DNA of 45,895 bases from Deltaproteobacteria bacterium. GTDB taxonomy: Bacteria; Desulfobacterota; Desulfarculia; Adiutricales; Adiutricaceae. Location: positions 1 through 45,895 of the forward strand of contig JAISEK010000026.1 of assembly GCA_031264145.1 (NCBI GenBank). Reading direction: 5' to 3'. Both the position numbers and the translations under genes were made by a program. Under the pieces are notes generated by a model. That model did not search any database. It had not been told where the DNA came from and saw only the letters and a list, made by a program, of their open reading frames with translations. Positions 14,885 through 35,034 of this stretch are shown here, one piece after another; within the stretch, counting starts at the first letter, position 1, and every line of letters begins with the position of its first letter.

Positions 14885-15980
14885 AGGAATGGCCCCCCTC
14901 CTCTTCTGTCGGAAAAAGGGCCGGGTTGAAAGCAACCTTTACGGTACGATTCTGATTAAAGTTGATGCGGATGTAAAACGCCTGTTTTTTTGAGATCAGT
15001 CACAATAGTGCCTTGACAATCGGCATCAAATCTGGTCATCTTCAGGTTTCCTGGGCTTTACGTGTTCTTCAAAGTCACTCACGGGAATGTCGCCGTGCGG
15101 CGTCAGGCCACGGCCCGTTTCGTGCCCGTCCTGCCGCCTGTCCGAGGATCCAAGGGCAGGATCGAGGAGGCATCCCGTCGTTGGCCTCTATCATGATGGA
15201 AACGTAGCTGATTTTGGTGCCGCTTGCCAGGCCAACCCGATCTTTTCCAAGCTCCCTCCTTACGGCAGGGATGGCCTAGTGTCACCGAAAGGCAGTCCCA
15301 GCGGTTCTAGGGCCATGGACGTTTGACAAGGCATGTCTTGCCGCCAGCAAGGGCGGCAGCCGCCGTGAACAGCTCTGATTATTAAGGATGGACCCGCCCC
15401 TTGGCCTAAAAAAAGCCACCCCGCCAGGGTAGGCTGCTTGGGTGGAAGGGGGAGCCATGAAGAATTGTCCCAAAGGTGACCAGGGGGAATAACGTTGTTT
15501 CTCCAGGAGATAGCCCAGAAATCCCACCTGGCCCTTAACGGCAGCCGGGCCTCTGTAGAGGCTATACGGGAGTCAGACAAATATACAATCAGTTCCCACA
15601 ATAGTCAAGCCGCCGGAACGGGGGGGACGGGGGAGGGGAGGGACGAAAAAAATATGAAACCATCTATTTTTAAAACTAATAATTATTTGTAATATTGGTA
15701 AAAAAGAAACTATTTACTATTATTTTAATATTTTGTCTTTCTAAGCTTTATAATAATTCATATATAAGATATCAATATTATTTTTATGTTTATTTATAAA
15801 AATTAATGTTTATAAATAATACTAGATATATTATATAAATTATTAGTTTATAGATATAAAAATGCGTATTATAATGCAATATATGGTAGTAATTGAGATA
15901 TTGATAATTAAAAAAATAATATATCTAAAATAGGTAAAGAATAAATAGCCTCTTACATTCGACCTCCAGCCCAGACGAGG
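14885..15980. other. Intergenic region, no gene seen
   Basis: Mixed composition to about 15640, then an extreme AT-rich tract to 15950. The longest open frames (15260-15601 minus, 15087-15326 plus) have neither ribosome sites nor family resemblance. A promoter for the ABC operon should lie near 14930-15030, but I see no convincing hexamer pair. Confidence 0.5.
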
Positions 15981-16129
15981 CCATGGGCAATGTCAACAAC
16001 TTAAGGCTATATTGGCCCACAGCACCTAATTCTAATGTCTCGGATTCAAACTTAATATCTTGAATTGACTGATATTTTTAAAATACCCTACGTCGGCGGC
16101 TCTCTTAAGTTGTTGACATTGGGCCATGG
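15981..16129. repeat. 149-bp element bounded by 25/26-bp inverted repeats (MITE-like)
   Basis: Left arm 15981-16005 and right arm 16104-16129 are inverted copies sharing CCATGG at the tip and CAATGTCAACAACTTAAG inside; they differ only in the two or three bases between. The 98-bp interior has no open frame. Terminal-repeat geometry suggests a non-autonomous insertion element or a remnant of one. No target duplication is obvious. Confidence 0.5.
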
Positions 16130-16734
16130 GGGCTGGACTGGTCACAGCGCAGCGTCAGGTTTTGGTCTTGCGGATACTGGGGCACTCTGGAGCTGGTCAG
16201 GGTTCCAGACCTGCGGGCGGTCGTCGTTATTGACAAAGGGGCCAAGAGGTATGGCCAAATAGCAGCGCGATTCCAAAAAATCAGGTTTATCGCCAATTCG
16301 TTTAAGTTTACGGAAGGCTTGTTCAAATCTCTAGTTTCAGGGGATAATAGCTGGATAGGGTTTGTAGAGGGCCAGGCAATGGTGATTATTGGCATCCGCC
16401 CGTGGTGAGGCACTGCGGCCGCTATTAAGAAATAGTTCAAATTATGCTGGTGGTGGAAACTGCCAAGACGATACGCCATTTTGAGAAAGGCTTTGGCCAA
16501 GCAGATCCCTGGACTTGGCATAAAAAGTCAGCGTATGGCTGATCGTAGGGTGATGGTTTCACAAATATCAGGAATATTTCTTTAAATTACTTGAGAACTT
16601 GGATATTTCAGGAAGAGGCCCATTGAGGCAAGTTTTTTAGAGGCTGGCAACCGGGAACCACAGGCCATGAACTCTTGAACCCCGCAATGCCATTTGTCCA
16701 CGGTCGGGTAGCTGGGGCAAGCCCATGAACGAAA
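16130..16734. other. Intergenic region downstream of the AT-rich membrane gene
   Basis: A plus-strand frame without start codon stays open from about 16120 to 16407 and encodes basic, IS-like sequence (for example IDKGAKRYGQIAARFQKIRF), but it has no recognisable domain or ribosome site. Otherwise nothing supported. Confidence 0.4.
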
Positions 16735-18495
16735 TTATAGAAGTGTTTTTTTTATATAAAGTGAAAATTGTCTTTCTTGATAATCGAGAACAAAATATTT
16801 ATTAAGATCATAATAATTTATAGTATTTATAAAATCATTACTTAATACAATATATCCAAAATCTAAAATATTTTCAGTATTACTGCATATTTTATAGTAA
16901 TTATTGGGTATACTGGCTAGTTGAACAAGGCGACCATCACAGGTAAGTATTTTTTGAGGATTACGCTTTTCAAGATAGTCTACTCGTCTTGTTAAACCTA
17001 TCTCGCCTGTTGTTAAAAATTTATTATCAGTGCTTAATTGCAAAAAAGTATTAATTTTATCTGAAAAAATTAATGATACAGATAATATTAGTAATAAAAT
17101 AGATGTTAAAAAAATTAAAAAATTACTTAATCCTATTTTAAAAAAATTAAATATTTTAAAATATATATAAGATATGAAATTTAAAAGTTTTAGATTATTA
17201 AGTAGTTCTTCAATACAATATCCAAGTGGAATACAAGCTAAAGCTACTGGTAATTTTCCGTTTGCTGAATTATAACTTAAGAAAAAAATCCATCCACTCA
17301 TAAAAATTAGTGAAGATATTGAAATTGGAAAGTAACGCTTAATAAATAAACATCTTATTGTTGGTAAAATAAAAACTGAATAATATGAATAATGAAAAAA
17401 GCAATATATAGCACGTTGTAAAAAAGATCTACCTTTATAATATGCTGGATTATCAAATATTGAAACAATTTTAGTCGGCACTAGTCCTATATATATTAAA
17501 TATGTATTAAATATATACCAACTAAGTGAGAAAATAAGAGAAATTATAGCAGGTAGAAATATTGTTTTATATATTTTTTTTCTATTTATTCCTATCTCTG
17601 CTAATTGATAAATTGATACAAAAATAAATAAAAAAACCCAAATAAGTCCAGTTTGTTTAAGTGTACCAGAAATGGCCGCAGCAATAAATGCAGAATATAA
17701 ATATAGTTTATCTTGATTCCCGTTTGAATATTCGATAATGTGTAATTGAAGCATTACATAAGATAATAAACAAAATATAATAACAGTAATATCTGGTGCT
17801 ATTCCTTTGCTGGCGGCAAACAGCCAGACCAGCCCAACGGCGGCAGTCACAGCTGAATACATATATTTAGATTTTCTAAGACAATATAATCCAAAAAGAC
17901 ATGGAATTACGCAAAACTGTGAAGTTAAAATTGAAAAAATTTGTATTTTAGTTGTACCCATATATACATATGGAATACTCATTATCATAGCTGCTAGTTG
18001 AGGGTAGTCACCGTATGTGCTGGGATATGTGTTCGATGCCCATGATACAGCCCACACATCCCATGAATTAATGGCATCTATATGTGTATATACATATTTA
18101 TGGTAAAATAAAATTACAAGAAGCGTTGTTAATGATATTAAAGATATAAAAATATTTTTAATATTTGTTATATGGTAAGTATTTAAATTTATATCATCTT
18201 TAAAAGAGTAATTTATATTAATCTTAATAGTTTTATTTTTATTAAAAAAATAATATACTAATATCGTGATAAAAATTATAAATACAATAATCATACTAAA
18301 TTTTGTATATATATTGAAGTAAAGTAGTATGTATAATATTATATAATTACTTGCTAAGGAATATATAAAAGATAATGTTATAAATCTAGAAAAACCTAAT
18401 CTATATTTAATAAATATGACACAAATTGCAGCACCAGGTAAAAAAATAGTTTGTAAAAAACCTATTAGCCCCCAAAAAAGAAGCATATAAATCAC
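16735..18495 (-). CDS. AT-rich polytopic GT-C-like glycosyltransferase, homologue of the gene at 27922-29685
   Basis: 586 aa, about 11-12 membrane segments. It aligns over its whole length with the GC-rich protein at 27922-29685. Shared blocks include FLPGAAIC near the N-terminus, the large outer loop with an acidic residue, SW and DYPQL (here SWDVWAVSWASNTYPSTYGD followed by YPQL), KQTG in the middle, and a soluble C-terminus with DGRL, DFGYIV and QERxxSxYI. This loop layout is typical of GT-C enzymes that take sugar from a polyprenyl-phosphate donor outside the inner membrane. Base composition is extremely AT-rich, unlike the neighbours, except for a short GC-rich patch at about 17805-17855. 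The frame is intact. No donor-synthesis gene adjoins it. Acquired from a low-GC source, or drifting; function inferred. Confidence 0.75.
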   Translation of the reverse strand: MIYMLLFWGLIGFLQTIFLPGAAICVIFIKYRLGFSRFITLSFIYSLASNYIILYILLYFNIYTKFSMIIVFIIFITILVYYFFNKNKTIKININYSFKDDINLNTYHITNIKNIFISLISLTTLLVILFYHKYVYTHIDAINSWDVWAVSWASNTYPSTYGDYPQLAAMIMSIPYVYMGTTKIQIFSILTSQFCVIPCLFGLYCLRKSKYMYSAVTAAVGLVWLFAASKGIAPDITVIIFCLLSYVMLQLHIIEYSNGNQDKLYLYSAFIAAAISGTLKQTGLIWVFLFIFVSIYQLAEIGINRKKIYKTIFLPAIISLIFSLSWYIFNTYLIYIGLVPTKIVSIFDNPAYYKGRSFLQRAIYCFFHYSYYSVFILPTIRCLFIKRYFPISISSLIFMSGWIFFLSYNSANGKLPVALACIPLGYCIEELLNNLKLLNFISYIYFKIFNFFKIGLSNFLIFLTSILLLILSVSLIFSDKINTFLQLSTDNKFLTTGEIGLTRRVDYLEKRNPQKILTCDGRLVQLASIPNNYYKICSNTENILDFGYIVLSNDFINTINYYDLNKYFVLDYQERQFSLYIKKTLL

Positions 18496-18736
18496 CGTAT
18501 TTAATTTTTTTGTAGATATGAGTTAAGATTAATGACTATATAATTATATTTATTGATATATTAAATTATAATTTTGTTATTATATATAGTATGTAATTAT
18601 TTTAAAATATAAAAATTAATATATTATACTTAATATATTGCATATTTTAATTCATAATATTAAGAATTAAATACATTATTTTGTTTATTATTTATATATT
18701 TCGTATTATTTATGGGTTTAGATAAGATCATGCGGT

Positions 18737-22326: not shown

Positions 22327-22779
22327 TCAAGGCTTGGGGATGGCATCCAGGTCCGCCGAGTTTTCCCGCTTCGCGAGATAGCCGTCCAGGATGATGGCGG
22401 CGGCGGTCTTGTCGACCACCTCCCGCCGTTCCCTGTGGCCCAGGCCGGCCTGGTCCAGGACACGGTCGGCCATGGCCGTGGTCATCCGCTCGTCGTAGGT
22501 ATCGACTGACAGGCCCAGGCGAGTCCTGAGCTCGTGCGCCAGGGAAAGCACCCTCTGGGCTTCCGGCCCCATGGTGCCGTCGGAGCGTCTGGGGAGACCC
22601 AGGACGATCAGCTCGGCCTTGCGCTCGTCGGCCATCCTTGAGACGGCCTCCAGGAAGAGGCCGTGCGGTTTGCGCTGGATTACCGCCAGGGGCTGGGCCG
22701 TCAGGCCCAGGGGATCGGTCGCGGCCACGCCCACCCGCTTCTCCCCGACGTCCAGGGCGATGATTCGGGTCTTTGGCAA
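22327..22779 (-). CDS. ruvX: Putative pre-16S rRNA nuclease / Holliday junction resolvase-like RuvX (YqgF)
   Basis: 150 aa from TTG 22779. This start is chosen because GGGAGG lies six bases upstream, a promoter sits just ahead of it (22806-22835), and the product then has the family length. ATG 22818 falls inside the promoter. The RNase H-like fold shows ALDVGEKRVGVAATDP with the first catalytic Asp, the ELIVLGLPRRSDGT strand-loop, the DER motif in VDTYDERMTT, and a final Asp in VVDKTAAAIILDGYL. YqgF processes the 5' end of 16S rRNA in E. coli. Confidence 0.93.
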   Translation of the reverse strand: MPKTRIIALDVGEKRVGVAATDPLGLTAQPLAVIQRKPHGLFLEAVSRMADERKAELIVLGLPRRSDGTMGPEAQRVLSLAHELRTRLGLSVDTYDERMTTAMADRVLDQAGLGHRERREVVDKTAAAIILDGYLAKRENSADLDAIPKP

Positions 22780-22805
22780 GTCGAACCTCCCTTTGACGGG
22801 TGTTG

Positions 22806-22835
22806 ATTCTATCACCATAATGGAGCTTAAGACAA
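22806..22835 (-). promoter_or_regulatory. Sigma-70-type promoter for ruvX-mltG-lptF-lptG
   Basis: Minus strand TTGTCT (22835-22830), 18-base spacer, TAGAAT (22811-22806). The predicted leader of about 20 nt fits the TTG start at 22779. Confidence 0.5.
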
Positions 22836-23023
22836 GGGCTTGCCGGTCGGCTTGGCTACGTCTCGCTTTGCGTGGCAAGGTGGGCAGGGGGGACGGTGGC
22901 GGGGGACTTGCGGATGGCCGTGGGCGTGGCCTGTCTCTGGCCCACAGTCGATAGGACCTTTCTGGAAACAGCATCAATGAGGTTTTTTTGGGGCGCTATC
23001 ATGGCTTCGGCCAATAAGACGCC

Positions 23024-23770
23024 TCACCTCCGGCCAAATTTGTGCTTCAGGGCCAGCGCGGCGCATTTCATGCCGTAGCGAAAGGGAGGGGCGGAGGATT
23101 TGGCCAGGTCGTTGTAGAATGGGGGGATCGGGACCTCCCCGATCCTGAATCCGCTGGTGGCAAGGCGCATGTAAAGCTGTCCGTCGTAGTGGTACCAATG
23201 GGGCATGTCCTGGGCCACTATCCATTCCATGGTCCTTTTGCCGGTCAGGCGCATGCCGTCGTGGTAGCAATGGAGGTTGGTGCCGTAGCAGAAATTCTGC
23301 AGGGCCGTCACGGCGAAATGGCCGGCGACCCTTATAAGAGGCATATTGTTTCTTTTTTTATTGCTTAAAAGACTCCAGAAACTTTTTTTATACAGGTCAT
23401 AAAGAAATAATAGCCGTGAACCGACTATCATATCATGGCTTTTTTCTTCATAAGAAGTAATCAATTTGGCAATATTGGCTGGGTCGTGGTTAAAATCACT
23501 ATGCATGTGAATGGCATAATCAGCACCGTTTTCCAAGGCCAATCGGAACAGGCGCTGGCTGGTGTAGCCATAGCCCCTGTTGGTCCCGTTGGAATAGGCC
23601 TTCACCCTGGGCAGTGAATTCGCCACCCCGAAGGTGTCGTCGGAGCTGCCGTCGTCCAGGACGATTATGCCGTCGTCTTCCGACGGCAGGTAGCGGGCGG
23701 CCTGGCCGATCAGGTCAGGCAGGAAGTGGGCGCTGTTGTAGGCCGGAATCAGGACGCATAGCTTGGGCAT
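23024..23770 (-). CDS. Family 2 glycosyltransferase
   Basis: 248 aa, soluble GT-A fold of the dolichol-phosphate-sugar synthase type. Seen: VLIPAYNSA (6-14), LDDGSSDD (38-45) for the nucleotide, NRGYG (64-68), and SDFNHDP (91-97) in the place of the usual metal-binding DADGQH. The first Asp of the DxD is therefore shifted or replaced and catalysis is likely but less certain. No membrane anchor is present. Start supported by GGTGG upstream. Last gene of the surface-sugar run 26903 to 23024. The part encoded by 23330-23530 (about residues 80-147) is AT-rich against a GC-rich remainder. Sugar and acceptor cannot be told. Confidence 0.85.
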   Translation of the reverse strand: MPKLCVLIPAYNSAHFLPDLIGQAARYLPSEDDGIIVLDDGSSDDTFGVANSLPRVKAYSNGTNRGYGYTSQRLFRLALENGADYAIHMHSDFNHDPANIAKLITSYEEKSHDMIVGSRLLFLYDLYKKSFWSLLSNKKRNNMPLIRVAGHFAVTALQNFCYGTNLHCYHDGMRLTGKRTMEWIVAQDMPHWYHYDGQLYMRLATSGFRIGEVPIPPFYNDLAKSSAPPFRYGMKCAALALKHKFGRR

Positions 23771-23813
23771 GTCAAGACCACCTTCTGGGAAAACGACGGA
23801 CTACTGGACGGCC

Positions 23814-24821
23814 TCAAGCGAGCTGTCCGCGCCTCAGCGAACGCCAGCCCAGGCCGGTTTTCCAGGCAAAAAACAGGCCCAGCAGGGAACTGGTCACCAG
23901 ATACGCCGACCACAGGACCATGGAGAAGGCCCCCGCCACGTTCTTGTCGACCCCGAAGCAGCCCAGCGAGAGGATGGCCGCCACCTGGTACGTCCCGATG
24001 AAGGCCGGGGCGGAAGGGACGAGCAGGGCGAAGGTCAGGACGACCGTCATCAGGAACCCGGCCGAGACGGGGATGTCCAGGCCAAAGGCCGGGGCCGGGC
24101 TGTAGGCCCACAGGCATTGGACCAGCCACAGCGCCAATGAAAGGAGGATTGTCATGGCCAGGTCCCTGGCGCCGGCTATCTTGAGCCCGGATGCGAAGTT
24201 GAGGGCCATCTGGACCAGATTAGCGGCAAGTTTGCCAGGAAGCGGCCTGGACAGCCAGCCGAACAGCCTCAGGGCCAGGGCCTGGTGGGAGACCAGAAGC
24301 CTCAGGGCCAAGAGGATGCCCCCGAAAAACGCCAGCCCCATGACGCCGACTCGCCGAAGGGTCTCGGCGGACAAAGAGAGGCCAGCGGCCCCCGGTGTAT
24401 CCGGCAGATCGAGGAACAGGAGCAGAATCGAGAGAAAAAACAGGACCGACAGGCCGTCATAGACCCGCTCCATGACCACGGTGCCCAGCACGGCGGATTT
24501 GCTTATATCGTTCTCGGCCGCCAGAAGATAGGCCCGGACAAGCTCCCCCATGTGCGCCGGCAGGATGTTGTTGGCCAGAAGGCAGATGGACAGGGCCGAC
24601 AGGGGACTCCCAAAGGGGACGCTGGCCAGGGGCCTCAGCATCACCTTCCATCTGATGACCCGCAAGACATGAGCGAGAAGGTATATCCCCACGCAGGGGA
24701 GGAGCATTGGCAGGGATACCCTGCCGAAGGCCTCCATCAGCGGGCCAAGGTCGAGCAGGCGCATCAAGGCCAGGACGGCTATGAGGCTTACCGCGAACCC
24801 GACCGCATAGAATTTTCTCAT
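23814..24821 (-). CDS. Lysylphosphatidylglycerol synthetase-like (LPG flippase domain, AglD-type) membrane protein
   Basis: 335 aa from ATG 24821. About eight hydrophobic segments. It matches the LPG_synthase_TM/UPF0104 family: HVLRVIRWKVMLRPL (about 50-65 of this start), the conserved LLANNILPAHMGELVRAYLL block, ERVYDGLS and a late PSAPAFIGTYQ. The family flips or handles lipid-linked molecules; archaeal and bacterial members often sit in polysaccharide gene clusters, as here. No catalytic MprF synthase domain is attached. Likely helps move a lipid-linked sugar; this is inference from family and context. Confidence 0.82.
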   Translation of the reverse strand: MRKFYAVGFAVSLIAVLALMRLLDLGPLMEAFGRVSLPMLLPCVGIYLLAHVLRVIRWKVMLRPLASVPFGSPLSALSICLLANNILPAHMGELVRAYLLAAENDISKSAVLGTVVMERVYDGLSVLFFLSILLLFLDLPDTPGAAGLSLSAETLRRVGVMGLAFFGGILLALRLLVSHQALALRLFGWLSRPLPGKLAANLVQMALNFASGLKIAGARDLAMTILLSLALWLVQCLWAYSPAPAFGLDIPVSAGFLMTVVLTFALLVPSAPAFIGTYQVAAILSLGCFGVDKNVAGAFSMVLWSAYLVTSSLLGLFFAWKTGLGWRSLRRGQLA

Positions 24822-24936
24822 CGCGGCGCCATCCTTTTCGCCATCCAGTCTCACCTCAACCAGTTGGCACCGGCCGCCCAAGTTATGCCGCTATGGCGGC
24901 TCCCAGCCTCAGCCCTATGGCCCGGTGGCCTTTTTG

Positions 24937-26022
24937 TCAGGCCAGAAGTTCCGAATCCTCGCCTTCGCGGACATCGTCCAGCATGAGCCCGTGCCTGCGG
25001 AGGAGGGCCAGCGTCTCGGCGTAATCCATCACGTGGTCGTGGGAGGAATAGGGGTGGCCAAGCAAAAGCGTCTCGTCCTGGGGAACCCTGAGTTCGGGCA
25101 AAAGCGGGGCGATGGCGTAAAAGTCGCCACGGCCGTAGGCCCTTTGCCCCTCCTCGGGGGAAATCATCATCTCGTGTATTTTCTCGCCCGGGCGGATGCC
25201 GATTGTCGTTATGGGCACGTCGCGGTCGCCGATGAGGGCCTTGGCCACGTCGGTAATCAGGGCCGACGCTATTTTAGGGACATAGGTCTCTCCGGGGTTG
25301 GCCTCGGAAATGGCCGTGGCTATGGTCGTCACCGCCCCGTTCAGCGGCAAGAGGAAGCGAGTCATGTCGGCCGTGGTTATGGTCAACGGGCCGCCGTTCT
25401 TGATCTGCTCCCTGAAGAGCGGAATCACCGAGCCCCTGGAGGCCAGGACGTTGCCGTAGCGAACGCAGACGAATCTGGTACCCGGGCAGTTGATGTTGCC
25501 GGAAATGAACAGCCTCTCCTGGAGGGACTTGGTCATGCCCATGACGTTCACGGGCAGGCAGGCCTTGTCGGTCGAGACGCCGACCACCGTCTCCACCGGG
25601 AACGCATGCTCCTCAATGGCCCTCACGATGTTGCTAGCCCCCATTATGTTGGTGAGGCTGGCCTCATGCGGGAAATACTCGCACGACGGCACCTGTTTCA
25701 GGGCCGCGGCGTTTATGACGATGTCGATGCCCCGCATGACCCCCTGAAGCGAGAGGAAGTCCCTGACGTCGCCCAGGCGGAACTCCAAAAGCTTTTTGAA
25801 GTTGTTGTAGATAATCTCCTCGGAGACCTTGTTGACCCGCCGCTCGTAAAGCATCCGCATGGCGTACTGTTTGGCCTCGTCCCTAGAGAAGATGATTATC
25901 TTGGCCGGACAGCCGTATCTGCCCGAGAGGAGCGTGTTGACCAGCTGCTTGCCCAGCGAGCCGGTGCCGCCGGTAATCAGGACCCGCCTGCCATCGAAGG
26001 TCTTGTTCAAATCCATGGCCAT
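24937..26022 (-). CDS. UDP-GlcNAc 4,6-dehydratase-type SDR (CapE/FlaA1/PseB-like)
   Basis: 361 aa extended SDR. NAD-binding TGGTGSLG (17-24), SRDEAKQYAMR (46-56), NAAALKQVPSCE (104-115), VGVSTDKA (147-154) and the MxxxK form of the active-site motif in NVMGMTK (159-165), which is normal in this subfamily. It should oxidise and dehydrate a UDP-HexNAc to a 4-keto-6-deoxy sugar in the cytoplasm. The upstream RmlD-like gene (5 bp away) could reduce that product, giving UDP-L-FucNAc- or UDP-QuiNAc-type sugars. The 2-epimerase needed for FucNAc is not in the window. GGGCGG, within the end of the upstream gene, acts as the ribosome site. Confidence 0.88.
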   Translation of the reverse strand: MAMDLNKTFDGRRVLITGGTGSLGKQLVNTLLSGRYGCPAKIIIFSRDEAKQYAMRMLYERRVNKVSEEIIYNNFKKLLEFRLGDVRDFLSLQGVMRGIDIVINAAALKQVPSCEYFPHEASLTNIMGASNIVRAIEEHAFPVETVVGVSTDKACLPVNVMGMTKSLQERLFISGNINCPGTRFVCVRYGNVLASRGSVIPLFREQIKNGGPLTITTADMTRFLLPLNGAVTTIATAISEANPGETYVPKIASALITDVAKALIGDRDVPITTIGIRPGEKIHEMMISPEEGQRAYGRGDFYAIAPLLPELRVPQDETLLLGHPYSSHDHVMDYAETLALLRRHGLMLDDVREGEDSELLA

Positions 26023-26027
26023 TTGGT

Positions 26028-26903
26028 CTACCGCCCGTAAGTCAGATGATGCTCGCGCATGTTTTTCAAGAGCCAGGGCCAGCCAGGTGCCACGTAGCCA
26101 GTGGCCCGGAAGAACCTGGCCCCGGACAACCGTTTGTCGTCCACCACCGAATCGTCAGGGACGATGGCGATCCTCTTTCCGTATTCCTCGGCCACCAGCC
26201 CCAAAAGGTCATGCTTGGAAATGGGGGCCGAGGAGACCTGGAAGAGCCCGGACAGATCCTCCCGCGGGAGGACGAGTTGGGCCAGGATCCTCGCCTGCTC
26301 CACGGCCGGCAGCCCGGAATAGATGGCCCGCGTGTAGCCGTTGACCTGGTCCTCACTCGACAGGAACCATTCGACCAGGCTGTTTTTCTGGCCGAACAGC
26401 TCGTGCCCGATTATCGAGGTGCGCAGGGTCAGGGCCCCAGGGCCCGATATCTCGCCAAGATACTTGCTGAGCCCGTAGACGTCCCTGGCGGAGCAAAAAT
26501 CGTCCTCGTCGTAGGGGGTCCCCTTTCGGCCGTCAAACACGCAGTCGGTGCTGTAATGGAGCAGCCGGGCGCCCAATTCCCTGGCCAGACCCAAAAGAAG
26601 GTGGGGGAACCTGGAATTCACCTCCACGCACGGCAGGGCTTCCCGGCCTTCCGGCTTCTGTCGGATCAGCCCGACGCAGTTCACCAATACGTCCGGCCTG
26701 AGACCACGCGCCGCCTTTTCGACCGTCGGGAAATCCAGGGCGTCCACACCCCCTATCAGACGCCCCAGGCTCTCCCGCGGCATCCAGTCCTCAAGCCTCC
26801 GGACATCCCTGGCCGAGCCGTACACGTCCAGCCCGGAACCCCAAAGCCAGGTGAATAGCGCATGGCCAAGCATTCCGGAAACGCCCAGGATCAGAACCTT
26901 CAT
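26028..26903 (-). CDS. RmlD-type NAD(P)-dependent sugar-nucleotide reductase
   Basis: 291 aa from the ATG at 26903, with AGAGGAAG upstream; an adjoining ATG at 26906 is possible. NAD(P)-binding GVSGMLG (7-13), NCVGLIRQ (75-82), STDCVFDG (118-125), and catalytic Y143xxxK147 in YGLSKYLGE. It resembles RmlD-like reductases found beside CapE-type dehydratases, where they reduce a UDP-4-keto-6-deoxy-HexNAc. It is shorter than CapF/WbjC and lacks their C-terminal cupin. First gene of a four-gene operon with an unusual leader: two hairpins and an (AG)12 tract upstream. dTDP-rhamnose synthesis with rfbC is a less likely alternative. Confidence 0.85.
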   Translation of the reverse strand: MKVLILGVSGMLGHALFTWLWGSGLDVYGSARDVRRLEDWMPRESLGRLIGGVDALDFPTVEKAARGLRPDVLVNCVGLIRQKPEGREALPCVEVNSRFPHLLLGLARELGARLLHYSTDCVFDGRKGTPYDEDDFCSARDVYGLSKYLGEISGPGALTLRTSIIGHELFGQKNSLVEWFLSSEDQVNGYTRAIYSGLPAVEQARILAQLVLPREDLSGLFQVSSAPISKHDLLGLVAEEYGKRIAIVPDDSVVDDKRLSGARFFRATGYVAPGWPWLLKNMREHHLTYGR

Positions 26904-27016
26904 CATCTTCCTCTTGCGGCCTCGTGGCCGACCGGCCGACACCCCATGGTCTAACCCCCGCTTGGCGCGGGTTTCTGCAATTCTTGACTTGATTCCATCC
27001 CAATGGCCAATAAAAG

Positions 27017-27054
27017 GGCCCAATATCCAATCGTCCTTGATTGGATATTGGGCC
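27017..27054. repeat. Perfect 16-bp inverted repeat with 6-nt loop (possible attenuator/terminator)
   Basis: Arms 27017-27032 and 27039-27054 (core CCAATATCCAATC). On the minus strand it is followed by CTTTTATTGG, a modest T-run, and lies about 115 bp before the reductase start, so it could attenuate the sugar operon or end an upstream transcript. Confidence 0.5.
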
Positions 27055-27921: not shown

Positions 27922-29685
27922 TCAGTGGTCAAGACCGTAAATGGTCCCTATCAGGTCGCGCCTGACGTAAATGGATATGTCTCTTTCCTGGAAATCCTTG
28001 GCGAAAAGCTCGTCCAGCCCCAGGTCCTGGAGACTAGGCAGGAAGGCGTCGCTGATGACTATGTAGCCGAAGTCGCCCAGAGCGAAGCCGCCGTGCTCGC
28101 CGTAGGAGACGAAGCCCTCGTCCTGGACGCTCAAGAGCTGCTTGAGCCTCCCGTCGATGGAGAGCATGCTCTGGGGGCTTTGGCTCTGGAGCCAGTCAAT
28201 CCGCTTGGTGACGCCGGAAAGGCCTACCTCCAGGGAGCTGCGGACCCTTTCCCGCAATAACTTCTGATCGATGCTTGTCCCGTTGGCGTAGGAAATGCCC
28301 AGTATCACGGCCAGGACTACCGAGGCGCACAATATGGTCCGCCTCAGGAGTACTTGTCCCGCTTTGGACAGAAATGCGCATAGCCTGGCATATTGCCGCC
28401 CCAAGGAGCCATTTTCGTGCCAGGAGTCAATGAGGCAGCCCAGGGGGAAAAACGAGAGCATGACCGGGAATCTCAGGTTGCGAGACGCATAGCTGAAGAG
28501 AAAGAGAAAGCACAGCACCATGAAAATGGAGGAGGCAGACAAAAACCTGAGGCCCTTGGCCTTTAGGCCCCAGACGGCCGGGACTAGGAACAGGAAGTAT
28601 TGGGGGTAATGGCCCAGGGCGCGACAAATTCTGGCCGCCAGGCCACGGCCCTGGTATATCTCAGGGGAGTTAATGATGAGCAGTATATTTGGCGCAACCT
28701 CCCCGTGGGCAATTAGGTAGCGGTTGTAGAGATACCAGGGGAAGGCGACCAGGGCCGAGGCCAGGACGGGGAGAAAAAGGATCCTGGCCCTCTCCCTGAC
28801 TGGCCTGCCCTCCAGGAGCTCGGCGGCCACCAGGACGAACCAGGGCCACCAAAGCATGCCGGTCTGCTTAATGATGGCGGCGGCCGCGGCTGCCTGGAAG
28901 GCCAGGAAGAGATGGAGCCTCCTTTCCCCGCGGCCCAGGCCGGGTTCCAGGCCCCACTGGAGGATGACGAAGGCCATCAGGGCCAGGAGTCCGACCATGG
29001 CGTCTGCGTAGCCCGCCTGCGTGATGACCCAGAAATAGACCGACAGGAGGGCCACTACCGGGACGGCCGGGCCATACCTGCCGCCCTTGAGGGTCGACAG
29101 GCAAATCAGGAAGAAGACGATGAAAATGTCCAGCGAGACGATGGAAAAGACCAAAATGTCGGTCGTCCCGATGAAGATATAGGGTATGGACTTGATTATG
29201 GGCATCAATTGCGGGTAGTCGCCGCGTATTTGGGGGTAGGAGTTGGCGGCCCAGGATCCGGCCCAATAATTCCAGCTGAGTATCTGGTCTATGCTTTTGA
29301 AGACCGTCTTGTGGAAAAAGAGGGCCACCAGGAGCAGGGCCGCGAAAAATATGAGGTTGAACGAATATGATATGTACTTCGCCTTATCCGGCTTGTAATA
29401 GGGTTTCGTCTGCGGCCGCTCGTCCTCCGAAGGGCCACGGGCCTGACTGGCGGCCAAAAGGATCAGGGCGCTGGCCGTCGCCGCCAGCATGAGGGCTGGG
29501 CGGGTGTAAAGGCTCGCCTGGACCAGGACCATGGCCATGACGTAGTTGACGACCAGGCTGAGGATGAAGGCCAGGCTCGCGAACCTGGCGGGGCCCAGCC
29601 GCCTGGGGGCAATGAGGGCGCAGATGGCCGCCCCTGGCAGGAAAACGGCGTGGAGGATGCCAATTATGCCCCAGAAAAGCGTCAT
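27922..29685 (-). CDS. Polytopic GT-C-like glycosyltransferase (GC-rich homologue of 16735-18495)
   Basis: 587 aa from the ATG at 29685, which overlaps the GT2-GtrA stop by four bases (ATGA). About 11-12 membrane segments. N-terminal FLPGAAIC, first large outer loop with D and SWNYWAGSWAANSYP then GDYPQL, central IIKQTG, and a soluble tail with IDGRL, GDFGYIVIS and FQERDISIYVR. These blocks recur in the AT-rich protein 11 kb away. The layout suits a transferase using polyprenyl-phosphate sugar on the outer face of the inner membrane, and the coupled upstream gene encodes a donor synthase/flippase fusion. Family assignment rests on topology and loop pattern; acceptor unknown (LPS, protein or capsule). 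Confidence 0.78.
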   Translation of the reverse strand: MTLFWGIIGILHAVFLPGAAICALIAPRRLGPARFASLAFILSLVVNYVMAMVLVQASLYTRPALMLAATASALILLAASQARGPSEDERPQTKPYYKPDKAKYISYSFNLIFFAALLLVALFFHKTVFKSIDQILSWNYWAGSWAANSYPQIRGDYPQLMPIIKSIPYIFIGTTDILVFSIVSLDIFIVFFLICLSTLKGGRYGPAVPVVALLSVYFWVITQAGYADAMVGLLALMAFVILQWGLEPGLGRGERRLHLFLAFQAAAAAAIIKQTGMLWWPWFVLVAAELLEGRPVRERARILFLPVLASALVAFPWYLYNRYLIAHGEVAPNILLIINSPEIYQGRGLAARICRALGHYPQYFLFLVPAVWGLKAKGLRFLSASSIFMVLCFLFLFSYASRNLRFPVMLSFFPLGCLIDSWHENGSLGRQYARLCAFLSKAGQVLLRRTILCASVVLAVILGISYANGTSIDQKLLRERVRSSLEVGLSGVTKRIDWLQSQSPQSMLSIDGRLKQLLSVQDEGFVSYGEHGGFALGDFGYIVISDAFLPSLQDLGLDELFAKDFQERDISIYVRRDLIGTIYGLDH

Positions 29686-30752
29686 CGGGCGGCGGTCTTG
29701 TTTCCCTTGGGGATGAAAATGAAGCGTCTCTGGACGAACCAGCTCAGGAGGAAGAGACCGGCCTCGGACAAGAGCTTGCCCAGGACAACGTAGAGCCCGA
29801 AGAGGCGGAAAAACAGTTCCGTCAGTCCCCAGGAGAGGCACATGAAGGCGGCCACCAGGACCACGTACTTGGCCAGCTGTTTGGCCAGATTGGTCTTGAC
29901 TTTGAACACCAGGTACCTGGAAAGGGAGAAATTATACAAGATTGAGGCAACCCTGGCGATGACGAAGGAACAGAGTATTTCCCTCGTATGGTAGTAGACG
30001 AGGGAGAAGACCAGATAGTCAAGGACGGTGGTCGAGATGGAGAGGAAGAAGAACTTGACGAAGATGGCCCCTATTGTCAACGAGTCCCTGATGGAGCGGT
30101 AGTGGGACGAGGCGTTGGCGTCAAGGTAGACCGTCTCGATGGGCACCTGGATGGTCTGTCCGGGGAACTCGTTGGTCATGTTGACCAGGGCGGCGAACTC
30201 GTAGTCGAAGCGGTCGTAGGGCACCCCCAGGAAGAAGCCGGCCTTGTCCCTGGGGATGAAGCGCAGTCCCGTCTGGGTGTCGCCCAGGCGGTAGCCGGTG
30301 AAGAAGCCGAAGACGAGGCTGGTCACGGTGTTGCCCAATTTGCTCCTAAAAGGAGTATTGGGGCCAAAAACCCTCACCCCCAGTGCGAACTTGGCTTCCA
30401 GGGCCCCTTTTTGGGCCACCTTGGCTGCGTCCCCGGCCAGGTGCTGGCCGTCGGCGTCGCAGCAGACTAGGCCCGGGGAACCAGGTGCCGACTCCAGGAG
30501 GAAGTGATTTAGCCCCGTCTTGAGGGCCTGGCCCTTGCCCCTGTTCACGGCCTGCCGCAGCAAGGCGACGTCGCCCCTGTTTTTGAGGGAATCGAAGATC
30601 CAGCCCCTGTCAGGGGAGGAACCGTCATCGACCACGATGATTCGGGCAAAGGCCTTGGTCTCCGCAAGGCCCTCGACCAGATCGGGCAGCCTCTGGTCCG
30701 GCTGAAAGGCCGGGATTAGGGCCCAGGGCAGATTCTCGTCCAGACTGTTCAT
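29682..30752 (-). CDS. Fused GT2 polyprenyl-phosphate sugar synthase and GtrA-type flippase
   Basis: 356 aa. Residues about 8-220 form a GT2 domain: IPAFQP (13-18), VVDDGSS (40-46), NRGKGQALKTG (70-80), CDADGQH (98-104) for the metal, and DTQTGLR, as in DPM1/GtrB enzymes that load a sugar onto polyprenyl phosphate. Residues about 225-350 are a GtrA domain of four membrane helices, with STTVLDYLVFSLVYY and FSLSRYLVFK (here as typical NFxxxRxxVF) visible, which flips the lipid-sugar outward. Fusion of the two functions is the notable feature. The GT-C-like gene follows with a four-base overlap. AGG seven bases before the ATG. Confidence 0.88.
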   Translation of the reverse strand: MNSLDENLPWALIPAFQPDQRLPDLVEGLAETKAFARIIVVDDGSSPDRGWIFDSLKNRGDVALLRQAVNRGKGQALKTGLNHFLLESAPGSPGLVCCDADGQHLAGDAAKVAQKGALEAKFALGVRVFGPNTPFRSKLGNTVTSLVFGFFTGYRLGDTQTGLRFIPRDKAGFFLGVPYDRFDYEFAALVNMTNEFPGQTIQVPIETVYLDANASSHYRSIRDSLTIGAIFVKFFFLSISTTVLDYLVFSLVYYHTREILCSFVIARVASILYNFSLSRYLVFKVKTNLAKQLAKYVVLVAAFMCLSWGLTELFFRLFGLYVVLGKLLSEAGLFLLSWFVQRRFIFIPKGNKTAAR

Positions 30753-30839: not shown

Positions 30840-31730
30840 TTAATGAATTGTCTTGTCGCCATTTCGGGGAGAGATGGGAGGTGGAAAAGGGAAAGTGCTT
30901 TGATAGATCTGCAATGTCTCCTCATCCGTGGTCCAAACCAAGGAACCATTGGTAGCCAAATCCTCGACCATGCGAGAGGGCGCGCGGTATTTTCGCACGA
31001 CGGAGCTTTTCATGTCTTTCGAGTGCAAGGCGTTTTGGAGATCGATTTGGTAAATCGTGTCATGGCCAAGGTCCCCGTTAGCCTCGTACAGATATGTGCC
31101 ATCCCACATCAGGCCCTGGCTGAAGAATCTGTTTTTGTATTTGTGGGCGGCCTTGTCCTCCACTGGGGTTGGCGTCAATATCTTGTCAGCCTCCACCAGG
31201 TATGTGTAGCCGCTATTCATGAAATCAGACACGGCCAAATAAGATTTTCCATTTATGCGGCAAAACGTAATTGAGCTGGAACCAGAAAGACCCGTTGCTA
31301 CCCTCCCCGTTACTGCGGCCCGCCCTGTCTCGAATGATTTTTCCAAATCTATCCTGTAAATGGCATCGCTCATGTAATCTATGGCCCACAAGACCTGCCC
31401 ATCCCAAGCCAGACCGCTTGTGTGTACGGCCTCATAAGGCATGACGAACATCGAGTCAATGACATAGGAGTCGTCTGATAAAGACAATCCGTAAATTACG
31501 TTTTCCTTATTATTAACGCTGACGGAAAGAATTAAGTGTCCGTCAATATACTCCAGGCCCTGTGGGGTGACCTTCTGGTCATGCCCCGGAATGTGACCCA
31601 GGCTCTTCCATTCAACTGCCAATTTTGGTGTCAAATCTATAAAATGAAGTGTCAGAAAGATGGCAAAAACCAGTATAAATAATGTAAACCATATAGTTAG
31701 CCACTTTTTAATTCTAAAATGCCTGGACAT
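30840..31730 (-). CDS. Membrane-anchored beta-propeller-like protein of unknown function
   Basis: 296 aa from ATG 31730 (GGTGG just upstream); an ATG at 31778 would add 16 hydrophobic residues without a site. A basic start, then one membrane helix (about 10-32), then an outside domain with repeated four-strand blade-like segments: VTPQGLEYIDGHLILS, HTSGLAWDGQVLWAIDY then YRIDL, and FSQGLMWDGTYLYEANG then YQIDL. The GL-WDG-LW pattern recalls glutamine cyclotransferase or YncE/SMP-30 propellers, but I see no catalytic set. It precedes the GT2-GtrA gene by 87 bp in the same direction and may belong to the same unit. Function not known. Confidence 0.65.
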   Translation of the reverse strand: MSRHFRIKKWLTIWFTLFILVFAIFLTLHFIDLTPKLAVEWKSLGHIPGHDQKVTPQGLEYIDGHLILSVSVNNKENVIYGLSLSDDSYVIDSMFVMPYEAVHTSGLAWDGQVLWAIDYMSDAIYRIDLEKSFETGRAAVTGRVATGLSGSSSITFCRINGKSYLAVSDFMNSGYTYLVEADKILTPTPVEDKAAHKYKNRFFSQGLMWDGTYLYEANGDLGHDTIYQIDLQNALHSKDMKSSVVRKYRAPSRMVEDLATNGSLVWTTDEETLQIYQSTFPFPPPISPRNGDKTIH

Positions 31731-32124
31731 CAACCACCAAAATAAGTCTCTAATATAAAAAATAGTATATATAATCAATATAATTTACTCTAGTTTAAGT
31801 TATATTTAATTATCAAAAAAAATAATGGCATCTTGTATGATTTTAATAAAATTTTAGAGTAGTTGTGCTTATAGCTTGTTATTTAACTTATTAATCAGTT
31901 ATTAGCTTTAAAAATAAACATTGTTTACTACAACTATAAAACTAATAAATATTATTTTATAAATACTATAAAACAGATAATATATATGATCAATTATTGT
32001 CTATTATAAGAATAGATACTATTAAAATCAAATATATAGAAAAATATAAGTATTTATTTAGATAAAAAATACAAAATATTTTCTATATATAGTATATAGT
32101 TATTAAAATAATAATTTACTGTTA
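31731..32124. other. AT-rich intergenic region, no gene seen
   Basis: Almost pure A/T from 31740 to 32120, many stops in all frames, no recognisable signal. Confidence 0.6.
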
Positions 32125-32466
32125 TTATTTTGGGTGGGTACGGCATTCATTTGGGTAATCGTGGTACCTGAAACAGTACACTGAATTTCCTCGAATATCT
32201 AGTTCAACCCAGCCATGTCTTCCGCCATTATATGTGTAGAGAACCTTCATCATGACTTTGAATCCGTCACCCATTTCCTGGACATCCTCAATCCTGGCAC
32301 TTCCTTGGTCATACCTATTCCAAAACCAACTTTTCGCATCATTGGCAATGCTGCTATCCGCTAGATATTGGCAGTTTACACGGTCACAAAAACCTGCATA
32401 CAAGAATGTTTCATTAAAAAAAGAAAATAAAATAAATAAAAACGCAAGACCGACAAATTTTTTCAT
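32125..32466 (-). CDS. Small secreted cysteine-containing protein
   Basis: 113 aa. MKKF and a hydrophobic core FLFILFSFFNETFLYAG give a signal peptide, with cleavage near residue 24. The mature part of about 90 residues has four Cys (in FCDRVNCQ, VYCFR and NECRTH), enough for two disulfides, and a predicted beta-strand pattern (GFKVMMKVLYTYNGGRHGWVELDI). The ribosome site AAGAGG precedes ATG by six bases. Not recognised. It stands alone between AT-rich DNA and an area of decayed genes. Confidence 0.65.
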   Translation of the reverse strand: MKKFVGLAFLFILFSFFNETFLYAGFCDRVNCQYLADSSIANDAKSWFWNRYDQGSARIEDVQEMGDGFKVMMKVLYTYNGGRHGWVELDIRGNSVYCFRYHDYPNECRTHPK

Positions 32467-33142
32467 AACTGACCTCTTAACTACGGCTTGACGACTGAAT
32501 CTTCGGCCAAGCGGTAAAGCCCACGAAACGTTACCGGATACATTTTGCGAATCCGTGTCCGTTTATGAGCCAAAAATAGCCGCACGATTGTCCGCACACT
32601 GTTCAAGTAGCTTTTGGGTTTCATTAATACGAAATACCACAACATAACCATTGGATGGCCCGCAAGGCCAAGTGTTGGTCGCTGCATGTTTCGAGCATCC
32701 AAAGGTTAGTCCATGGCTTAAACTTCAAAGGTCAGTACTAATGGGGTTTTCATTGCGCTAGTCTTGAGCCTATACGCAACCTGGCGGGATGGTTACGTTC
32801 TCCATGCCTCGACCAGGGTTTTTGCTGGCCCGCGCCTTTATTTATGGAGCGGGTAGCGGACTGCCGGGATAAATAATGACCAACTGAGCCGTGTCGGTCA
32901 GCTTTCCGGACATCGTCCAAAAACCACAATCGGCAGGCGTGTCCGACAGAAGCCCACTACAAATCCTAAAAAAGTCCAGGGTTCGCCAGAATCGTTGGAC
33001 ATCGGTATTTTACCTTTCAAGTAACCTGTACGGGGCCTTTTGAGGCAAAACCACTACCATGTTGGCCGGCTACGACAGCGTGTTTTTGGGCGATTTGGGT
33101 TCGAGGGCTGTAATGTCTATAGCTATCTATATATTGCGCCGC
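32467..33142. other. Region of probable gene debris
   Basis: Intermediate composition with short minus-strand frames (for example 32481-32702) broken by stops. No ribosome sites or intact domains. Downstream of an antitoxin remnant, so it may hold the decayed toxin, but I could not recognise RelE-type motifs. Confidence 0.4.
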
Positions 33143-33295
33143 TATCCTGAATGGCGTTTCCTTTCCGAGGATCGATGCCTTTGTGGATAGCGAATATATA
33201 CCGTCTTCACCGTCAATCACGTTTCATCGCTTAAAGGCCGCAAAAACACATTTCAGGGCTTCATCCATGCGTATATCCATGTTTGTCAGAGACAT
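33143..33295 (-). pseudogene. RelB/DinJ-type antitoxin remnant
   Basis: The ATG at 33295 has AGAGGA eight bases upstream. The product MSLTNMDIRMDEALK matches the RelB/DinJ N-terminus (TNxxIRMDExLK), which forms the DNA-binding ribbon. After 23 residues a TGA (33224-33226) stops it. The same frame then continues to an ASILGKETPFRI segment (to 33143) that resembles the usual C-terminal RxxxIPFEI motif. The gene therefore appears truncated or corrupted; no intact toxin is visible. Confidence 0.5.
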
Positions 33296-33789
33296 GGCAA
33301 TTCCTCTTTGTTAACAACATACATAAAAGTATTTACTATGTCAATAGATATCAGGAGTTTCTGGATCCTCGCAAGGCTAAAGCATGATTCTTTTTCGGCC
33401 AGGCTGTCTTTTCTGGACGTTTGGGCATTGAAATTACTTGAGGAAATACGGTTCCATATCCAATGATAACAAGTTTAGTTGGTCACACCTGTTTACGCAC
33501 CTGTTGCATCATTATAATGATATTACTGCATTAAAAAATTATTAAAATTATTATCACTTCATAAATAATATATTATATTAATTTATCTCAATAAAATTAA
33601 GTTAATCTTATTTTCTATTTTAATTGATAAATAACATTAAAAAATATATAATATATTATTTTTATATCTAAAATATAAACTATATTTCATATATAAACTA
33701 TATATATTGCTAAAAGAATATAAATTTTATTGTTGCTATTTATGGCAAATTAAGTATAATGGGGAGCATCAAAATCGAGGGCCTCCCAT
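33296..33789. other. Gap upstream of the transposase gene, AT-rich in its second half
   Basis: 33500-33750 is almost pure A/T. No gene seen; no terminal inverted repeat of an insertion sequence identified. Confidence 0.5.
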
Positions 33790-35034
33790 TTGATTGATAA
33801 GATAATCCAATTTTTGGCGAAAATACCGGATCAAAGTCCCAAAAGAAAATCAAGGCATGGGCAGGAAGAGATCCTGACCATGTTCGTGGTGGCCGTCATT
33901 GCCGGCAAGGCGTCCTTGAGGGAGATACACGATTTCTGCGAAGACAGGCTCTTCCTTTTCAAGGAGTTCTTTCCTGGGATCAAGTCGGTCCCCTCTAAGG
34001 ACGATTTCGACAGGACGATCGAGGGCACGGCCGGCCCGAGCCTCTTTGACGGGATGTTCCAGGAGCTTGGCTTGGACTTCCTCAGGCGCGCCGGGGGGAG
34101 GAATGGACCGGTAAGCACCAAAAAGGGCGATAGGGACACCATTTATGTCGATGGCCGTACATCCTCGGGCACCGAGCTTCGCCCGGACCCGAAATCGCGC
34201 CTCCAGATCCTCAATGCGCAGGCCGGCCCCACAATCATGGCCCACATGGCGGTCTGGGAAAAACCAGGGGATAATACCGCCGTTCCTGGGTTGATCAGGG
34301 AGATACAGGCCCATTGCGGGCTAAAGGGCAAGACCGTCGCCATGGGGGCCTTGGGTTGCCATGGGGAGACCGTCTCCCTGATCCGAGAGTTTGGTGGCGA
34401 TTACGTGATCTGTCCCCAGGACGGCAAGGGGCTGGGGCTGGGGCAGGAGGTCAGGGCCCTCCTACAGGACGGACTGGCCGGGACCGAGACCCTGTCCAGT
34501 GACTGGGACAAGGCACGTGGCCACATCGAGAGGTGGTCGCTCGCCATGATCCCGCTTTCACCCGAAGTCGCCAGGGAGCGGCTCCCCTCGGCCCAGGGCT
34601 GGGAAGGGCTGAGGGTCGCGGCCCTCTTGACTAGGGAGAAGCTTCCCGCCAAGGGGGATGGCGAGCTCAAGGCGGTCAGCCGGCCCTTCGTCTCGAGCCT
34701 TGCCCCGCTGGCTGGGGAAATGCTTGGGGCCGCCAGGGGCCTCAGTCAGGCCGAGCCGGTCCCCAAGGTCCTTTACAGGGTCTACGGCAAGGACCAAGGC
34801 GGCATCGGCCAGGTGAACGGCCACGGCCTGTTCACCCTGGCCAGGATGCTGGGCCTCAATCTGATAAGGCCACTGATTGCACGAAATCCCGGCGATAGCT
34901 TTGACACGCTTCTGAGATTCATGGTGTGGAGACCCGATTACCTCCTCGCCGTACTCAGGGAGAACCCGGAGGATATGCTCCCGGTCCTGGAATGGACTGG
35001 TACGCACAGGTTCGACGGCGAGTTCTATCGTTAG
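33790..35034 (+). CDS. ISAs1-family transposase-like protein with altered catalytic residues
   Basis: 414 aa, TTG start with GAGGG upstream. The N-terminal third matches the DDE_Tnp_1-associated domain: a PD-rich start, EEILTMFVVAVIAGKASLREI (core AVIAGKASLREI), and PSKDDFDR (68-75). Asp121 in YVDGRTSSG corresponds to the first catalytic Asp. The second, normally DAxGCQ, reads GALGCH (186-191), so Asp is Gly. The HWxIExxLHWxLD block carrying the catalytic Glu is not recognisable, while the terminal FTLARMLGLNLIRP and WRPDYLLAVL segments are kept. No flanking inverted repeats seen. Frame is intact and GC-rich. Either an inactive insertion-sequence relic, or a protein kept for another role, as in H-repeat-associated proteins. 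Confidence 0.75.
   Translation: MIDKIIQFLAKIPDQSPKRKSRHGQEEILTMFVVAVIAGKASLREIHDFCEDRLFLFKEFFPGIKSVPSKDDFDRTIEGTAGPSLFDGMFQELGLDFLRRAGGRNGPVSTKKGDRDTIYVDGRTSSGTELRPDPKSRLQILNAQAGPTIMAHMAVWEKPGDNTAVPGLIREIQAHCGLKGKTVAMGALGCHGETVSLIREFGGDYVICPQDGKGLGLGQEVRALLQDGLAGTETLSSDWDKARGHIERWSLAMIPLSPEVARERLPSAQGWEGLRVAALLTREKLPAKGDGELKAVSRPFVSSLAPLAGEMLGAARGLSQAEPVPKVLYRVYGKDQGGIGQVNGHGLFTLARMLGLNLIRPLIARNPGDSFDTLLRFMVWRPDYLLAVLRENPEDMLPVLEWTGTHRFDGEFYR

Follow-up and report, generated by a model that had tools for sequence, protein, structure and literature searches.

Two overlapping genes in a 45,895-nucleotide stretch of deltaproteobacterial DNA (in the following referred to as the window) most probably encode a two-gene module for extracytoplasmic glycosylation, which passes a lipid-carried sugar to a surface acceptor; we assign this reading a probability of roughly 80%. 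Domain make-up, fold, conserved residues, topology and gene pairing were computed, and from these we infer the reaction, the flipping step, the involvement of a sugar and an acceptor, and a donor common to the partner transferase and a second copy of it. The GT2 domain of the first protein would load a sugar from a nucleotide sugar onto undecaprenyl (polyprenyl) phosphate at the cytoplasmic face. The GtrA-type domain of the same chain would anchor this fusion and probably help the lipid-linked sugar to the periplasmic face, where the second protein, a GT-C-type transferase, would use it as donor and pass the sugar on to a surface glycan or to some other acceptor outside the cell. This largely agrees with the original prediction of a fused donor synthase/flippase and a terminal GT-C transferase: the two-gene unit is borne out by domains, fold and recurrent pairing (29 of 66 loci), while the flippase role should still be worded with caution.

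The donor enzyme and its GT-C partner

Both genes are located on the minus strand and together have a GC content of 0.60. Their features are:

29682 to 30752, minus strand: GT2-GtrA fusion of 356 aa, predicted to be a polyprenyl-phosphate sugar synthase carrying a membrane domain of the GtrA/DPMS type (PF00535, PF04138)
30288 to 30719, minus strand: GT2 catalytic domain (PF00535, residues 12-155, E 3.8e-10)
30441 to 30458, minus strand: DxD motif DADGQH within the GT2 domain
29715 to 30056, minus strand: GtrA_DPMS_TM membrane domain (PF04138, residues 233-346, E 1.7e-11; four hydrophobic helices)
27922 to 29685, minus strand: glycosyltransferase of 587 aa with GT-C fold, predicted to perform the terminal sugar transfer (AlphaFold2 model, PDB fold matches)
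29152 to 29319, minus strand: residues 123-178 of the GT-C protein, predicted to form its first large loop outside the cytoplasm (D133, SWNxWA, YPQL)
29682 to 29685, minus strand: ATGA stop/start overlap between fusion and GT-C (read from the sequence)

The predicted ATGA overlap with a polytopic protein is confirmed by the codon positions, as the stop codon TGA of the fusion (29684-29682) and the start codon ATG of the GT-C gene (beginning at 29685) have four bases in common. This ATG was preferred over the GTG of a longer open reading frame because the homologues all begin at the same residue.

The GT2 motifs VVDDGSS and CDADGQH and the GtrA-like helices following them, all noted beforehand, are present in the fusion and in agreement with Pfam, where both domain matches exceed the cut-offs. 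Searching the PDB with a profile of 34 homologues returned the DPMS of Pyrococcus furiosus (PfDPMS, 5MLZ) as top match (E 2.4e-16, spanning the catalytic domain only), with ArnC and then GtrB sll0501 next. DPMS, ArnC and GtrB all put a sugar onto polyprenyl or dolichyl phosphate. D99 and D101 of the fusion are invariant in all 34 homologues, Q103 and H104 are found in 33 and the complete DAD in 31 of them. PfDPMS carries DADLQH, and the DADxQH motif is thus common to both proteins (PMC5526996). These features assign the GT2 part to the polyprenyl-phosphate-sugar synthases. For GtrA proteins, a function as flippase has the status of a proposal in the literature (PMC11127046, PMC8035078); the GtrA domain of the fusion may act likewise, and a role as anchor stands beside this as an alternative. 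The fused design itself is not new, given that NCBI uses a standard name for the same domain fusion ("bifunctional glycosyltransferase family 2/GtrA family protein") and that Pfam joins GtrA and DPMS membrane domains.

The partner protein contains about 11 hydrophobic helices, which lies within the 7-13 membrane helices of the GT-C superfamily. It yielded no Pfam or NCBIfam match above the curated cut-off (PMT, PMT_2, GT87 etc.), and PDB sequence searches with the single sequence and with a profile returned noise only. Among its 48 homologues, single distant members matched the PF02366 PMT and TMEM260-like Pfam models (E ~6e-4). An AlphaFold2 model generated with these 48 homologues reached a pLDDT of 91.7 and a pTM of 0.92, and its top 11 PDB fold matches are all GT-C enzymes (AftA, ArnT, STT3/OST, PglB, AglB and yeast OST; probability 0.94-1.00). 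One of the GT-C matches, 9n9j_I, is a chain of OST size from a secretory translocon, which we take to be STT3. AftB and ALG3 follow after the top 11, with unrelated proteins at negligible probability between them. An independent first model from 12 sequences (pLDDT 79) gave the same answer with weaker scores and the same match list plus Pmt4. Since E-values and TM-scores are modest (best E 9e-4; TM 0.38-0.49), they place the protein in the superfamily alone and in no closer family. According to the model, the polytopic 587-aa protein clearly belongs to the GT-C superfamily; its predicted fold is that of a transferase and supports the GT-C-like topology proposed beforehand.

In the model, three N-terminal helices (residues 2-82) and a helix at 99-122 precede a loop containing D133, YPQL and two short helices (132-146 and 160-172), which resembles the first outer loop of GT-C enzymes; the C-terminus (490-587) folds into a small alpha/beta domain. 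All 48 homologues, the most distant at about 20% identity, share D133, Y157, Q159, K273, G276 and N403. Loops predicted to face the cytoplasm are rich in lysine and arginine, which amount to 0.04 per residue in the D133 loop; because of this scarcity (positive-inside pattern) the D133 loop is most likely extracytoplasmic. A conserved acidic residue in the first large predicted outside loop, present in all 48 sequences, fits what defines the GT-C superfamily, and D133 would be the candidate catalytic base.

It appears unlikely that the enzyme glycosylates proteins in an O-mannosyltransferase-like manner and not a surface polysaccharide. The PMT and TMEM260-like hits of single distant members and the OST and PMT structures among the fold matches would be in line with such an activity, but lipid A and arabinan enzymes occur equally among these matches and the genes neighboring the pair are glycan/LPS genes (PseB-like and RmlD-like sugar-modifying enzymes, GT2, LptF/LptG).

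Distribution of the pair and its link to a methyltransferase

A single-sequence search of genome contigs with the GT-C protein gave no match; the alignment-based search yielded 66 loci from Anaerolineales, Gammaproteobacteria, Phycisphaerales, Bacteroidales, Helicobacteraceae, Verrucomicrobia, Alphaproteobacteria, Acidobacteria, termite-gut Deltaproteobacteria and others. In 29 of these 66 loci, a complete GT2-GtrA fusion is encoded no more than 2.5 kb away from the GT-C gene, 28 times on the same strand and 18 times at a distance of 100 bp or less, and four loci (L096, L098, L101, L125) show the same 4-base overlap. Both gene orders occur, which speaks against one frozen arrangement. In two further loci the GT-C gene shares four bases with a GtrA gene that stands alone, and in others a GT2 gene without GtrA is present. 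No donor gene was found within 2.5 kb in 23 of the 66 loci; in about 10 of these 23 the contig breaks off no more than 1.3 kb from the GT-C gene, and the pairing rate is therefore a lower bound. The expectation that GT-C homologues adjoin such a fusion, and do not regularly stand without a donor beside another partner, is borne out by the 29 loci. Within the window's family, the fusion occurs in 7 of 11 genomes with the GT-C gene versus 5 of 25 without (p 0.02), where chance figures assume independent loci, which is not fully the case (30 clusters at 40% identity among 48 sequences). Chance proximity of a gene with one or few copies per genome cannot explain the pairing. The pair is real, and homologous pairs recur in other phyla.

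How exclusive the partnership is can be judged less firmly. The fusion could be a housekeeping polyprenyl-phosphate-sugar synthase that supplies several transferases, with the adjacent GT-C protein as one user and not a dedicated partner, a possibility to be taken seriously although we consider it the less probable one. It would account for four GT2-GtrA carriers of the same family (same or sister genus) that show no GT-C of this kind, with the same-genus relatives keeping the fusion at 67-70% identity and no such GT-C nearby, for the presence of one fusion alongside two GT-C paralogues in this genome, both of which it would need to supply, and for the fusion adjoining a different 13-helix protein in another family. 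In Lactococcus, several systems draw on a single GtrA-type flippase (PMC8035078). It fits poorly with the fact that 28 of the 29 neighboring pairs share a strand, many with overlapping ends and in both gene orders, and we favor the two-gene module.

The membrane proteins beside GT2-GtrA genes on the D. vulgaris plasmid and in L. brevis had no significant match to the GT-C profile, and a plasmid search with a gammaproteobacterial GT-C yielded no hit either.

A class I methyltransferase of one recognizable type (start TDWxxYY) is located beside the pair in 19 of the 66 loci. In three of the 66 it forms a C-terminal extension of the GT2-GtrA chain, and the same triple fusion is present on a plasmid:

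L095, 3511-5175: GT2-GtrA-methyltransferase triple fusion, Anaerolinea
L122, 284-1987: GT2-GtrA-methyltransferase triple fusion, Helicobacteraceae
L125, 9986-11662: GT2-GtrA-methyltransferase triple fusion, Verrucomicrobia
L146, 6932-8668: GT2-GtrA-methyltransferase triple fusion, Nitratidesulfovibrio vulgaris plasmid

The homologue of the plasmid-borne triple chain in N. vulgaris RCH1 (L147, 4932-6667) is annotated as two overlapping frames, and that of strain DP4 as one. The methyltransferase, which the original prediction did not include, is what in fact recurs as an additional partner in relatives. The methyltransferase query used had no match in the window's genome, and a fusion from a Ca. 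Adiutrix genome (L029) ends in the remnant TDWDS; this suggests that the window contains a pared-down version of a methyltransferase-bearing system. In a termite-gut relative (L031, 7360-8810, minus strand), a GT-C gene with three in-frame stops lies beside intact GT2-GtrA and methyltransferase genes, a decaying module.

GT2-GtrA and the methyltransferase also adjoin a different protein with 13 helices, about 700 aa in length and without Pfam match, in a sister family belonging to the same class as the window:

L070, 3796-5895: 13-helix family protein
L071, 3876-5906: 13-helix family protein
L072, 3880-6150: 13-helix family protein
L073, 3519-5618: 13-helix family protein

This protein was considered as kin of the window's GT-C and rejected, the profile comparison being not significant. 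By eye, its DEFSHW...KDYPP stretch resembles the GT-C outer loop.

As a tentative extension, which we regard as rather doubtful in its entirety, the cross-phylum GT-C family might form a dedicated system with the GT2-GtrA fusion whose fuller form includes the methyltransferase. The sugar might be methylated on its carrier or as a cap, and the termite-gut lineage might possess a reduced form and swap GT-C copies by horizontal transfer to alter its surface. Searches of an open-access library found no description of a GT2-GtrA fusion together with a GT-C protein or a methyltransferase; the GT-C family without curated model, its pairing with the fusion across phyla and the methyltransferase link look undescribed. 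A broadly distributed membrane protein family without Pfam or NCBIfam model thereby receives a likely role, with its donor enzyme named. Two questions, whether a GtrA domain translocates lipid-linked sugars and whether methylation takes place while the sugar is attached to its carrier, could be addressed in a simple way with the pair and the triple fusion.

Surroundings of the pair

Three further features of the window bear on the pair:

30840 to 31778, minus strand: membrane-anchored propeller-like protein adjacent to the fusion (312 aa; partial PF05096 match)
22327 to 27023, minus strand: run of genes separating RuvX from the pair (RmlD-like, PseB/FnlA-like, PF03706 flippase-like, GT2)
16735 to 18486, minus strand: second GT-C paralogue, orphan (583 aa, 33% identical; GC 24%, GC3 14%)

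The propeller-like protein had been suggested as a possible third component, which was not supported. A three-part system in which it binds the acceptor or trims the glycan is very improbable: its gene is on the same strand, 87 bp upstream of the fusion, but 60 relatives, among them those with the pair, contain no homologue of it (unique among 61 genomes), its GC content is 0.46 compared to 0.60 in the pair, and the match to PF05096 (Glu_cyclase_2), weak although above the cut-off, covers residues 210-254 only.

Beyond the run of sugar-related genes follow RuvX, YceG and two LptF/LptG-like genes, and the neighborhood of the pair is, by its predicted gene products, a surface-glycan setting. One relative (L064) has an inverse-autotransporter-like and other genes between RuvX and the fusion, which marks the spot as variable. 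AT-rich stretches extend from 31800 to 33780, beside a DDE_Tnp_1_assoc transposase gene (33790-35034, plus strand), and from 15000 to 18700, around the second GT-C gene.

This second GT-C gene, which the original prediction had not mentioned, is located about 9 kb from the pair and has no donor gene of its own; its relatives in L023, L024 and L025 likewise lack a nearby donor gene. In view of its GC and GC3 values within a window of 58% GC, it was very likely acquired, probably recently. As the genome contains one GT2-GtrA fusion only, versus two GT-C genes, both transferases may share a single donor enzyme.

Comparison with known systems

The pair follows the working principle of three-component glycosylation systems (PMC11127046, PMC8035078). 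Its logic is that of Gtr-mediated O-antigen glucosylation in Shigella and Salmonella (GtrA, GtrB and a serotype-specific Gtr), i.e., synthase, GtrA domain and GT-C protein in a small operon. A GT2 synthase and a GT-C gene linked to donor genes are both present; GtrA is absent as a separate gene, being fused to the GtrB-like part in contrast to Shigella and Salmonella. The GT-C protein also differs in lacking detectable sequence kinship to any known family, and the genes are chromosomal. Of the proposal that the pair is a compact chromosomal version of a phage-derived Gtr system, the compact pair stands, and no phage link was found. The GT-C protein had no match in 50,697 phage records or among the PHROG families, where the GT2 part gave a weak match to a GtrB-like family.

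The same combination of GT-A synthase, GtrA-type protein and GT-C is found in CsbB-GtcA-YfhO and GtlA-GtcA-GtlB (PMC8035078), which are, however, encoded by separate genes, act on Gram-positive teichoic acid acceptors and employ another GT-C sequence family. ArnT (GT83) and AftA, the best fold matches of the GT-C protein, are 12-14% identical to it at low TM-scores, with no kinship at the sequence level. The NCBI name for bifunctional GT2/GtrA proteins denotes an architecture only and implies neither a function nor a GT-C partner. The DPMS of P. furiosus (5MLZ) combines GT2 and membrane domain in one chain with the DADxQH motif, as does the fusion, but is archaeal and uses GDP-mannose as donor. 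The fusion resembles the Pyrococcus DPMS more than a separate GtrA/GtrB pair.
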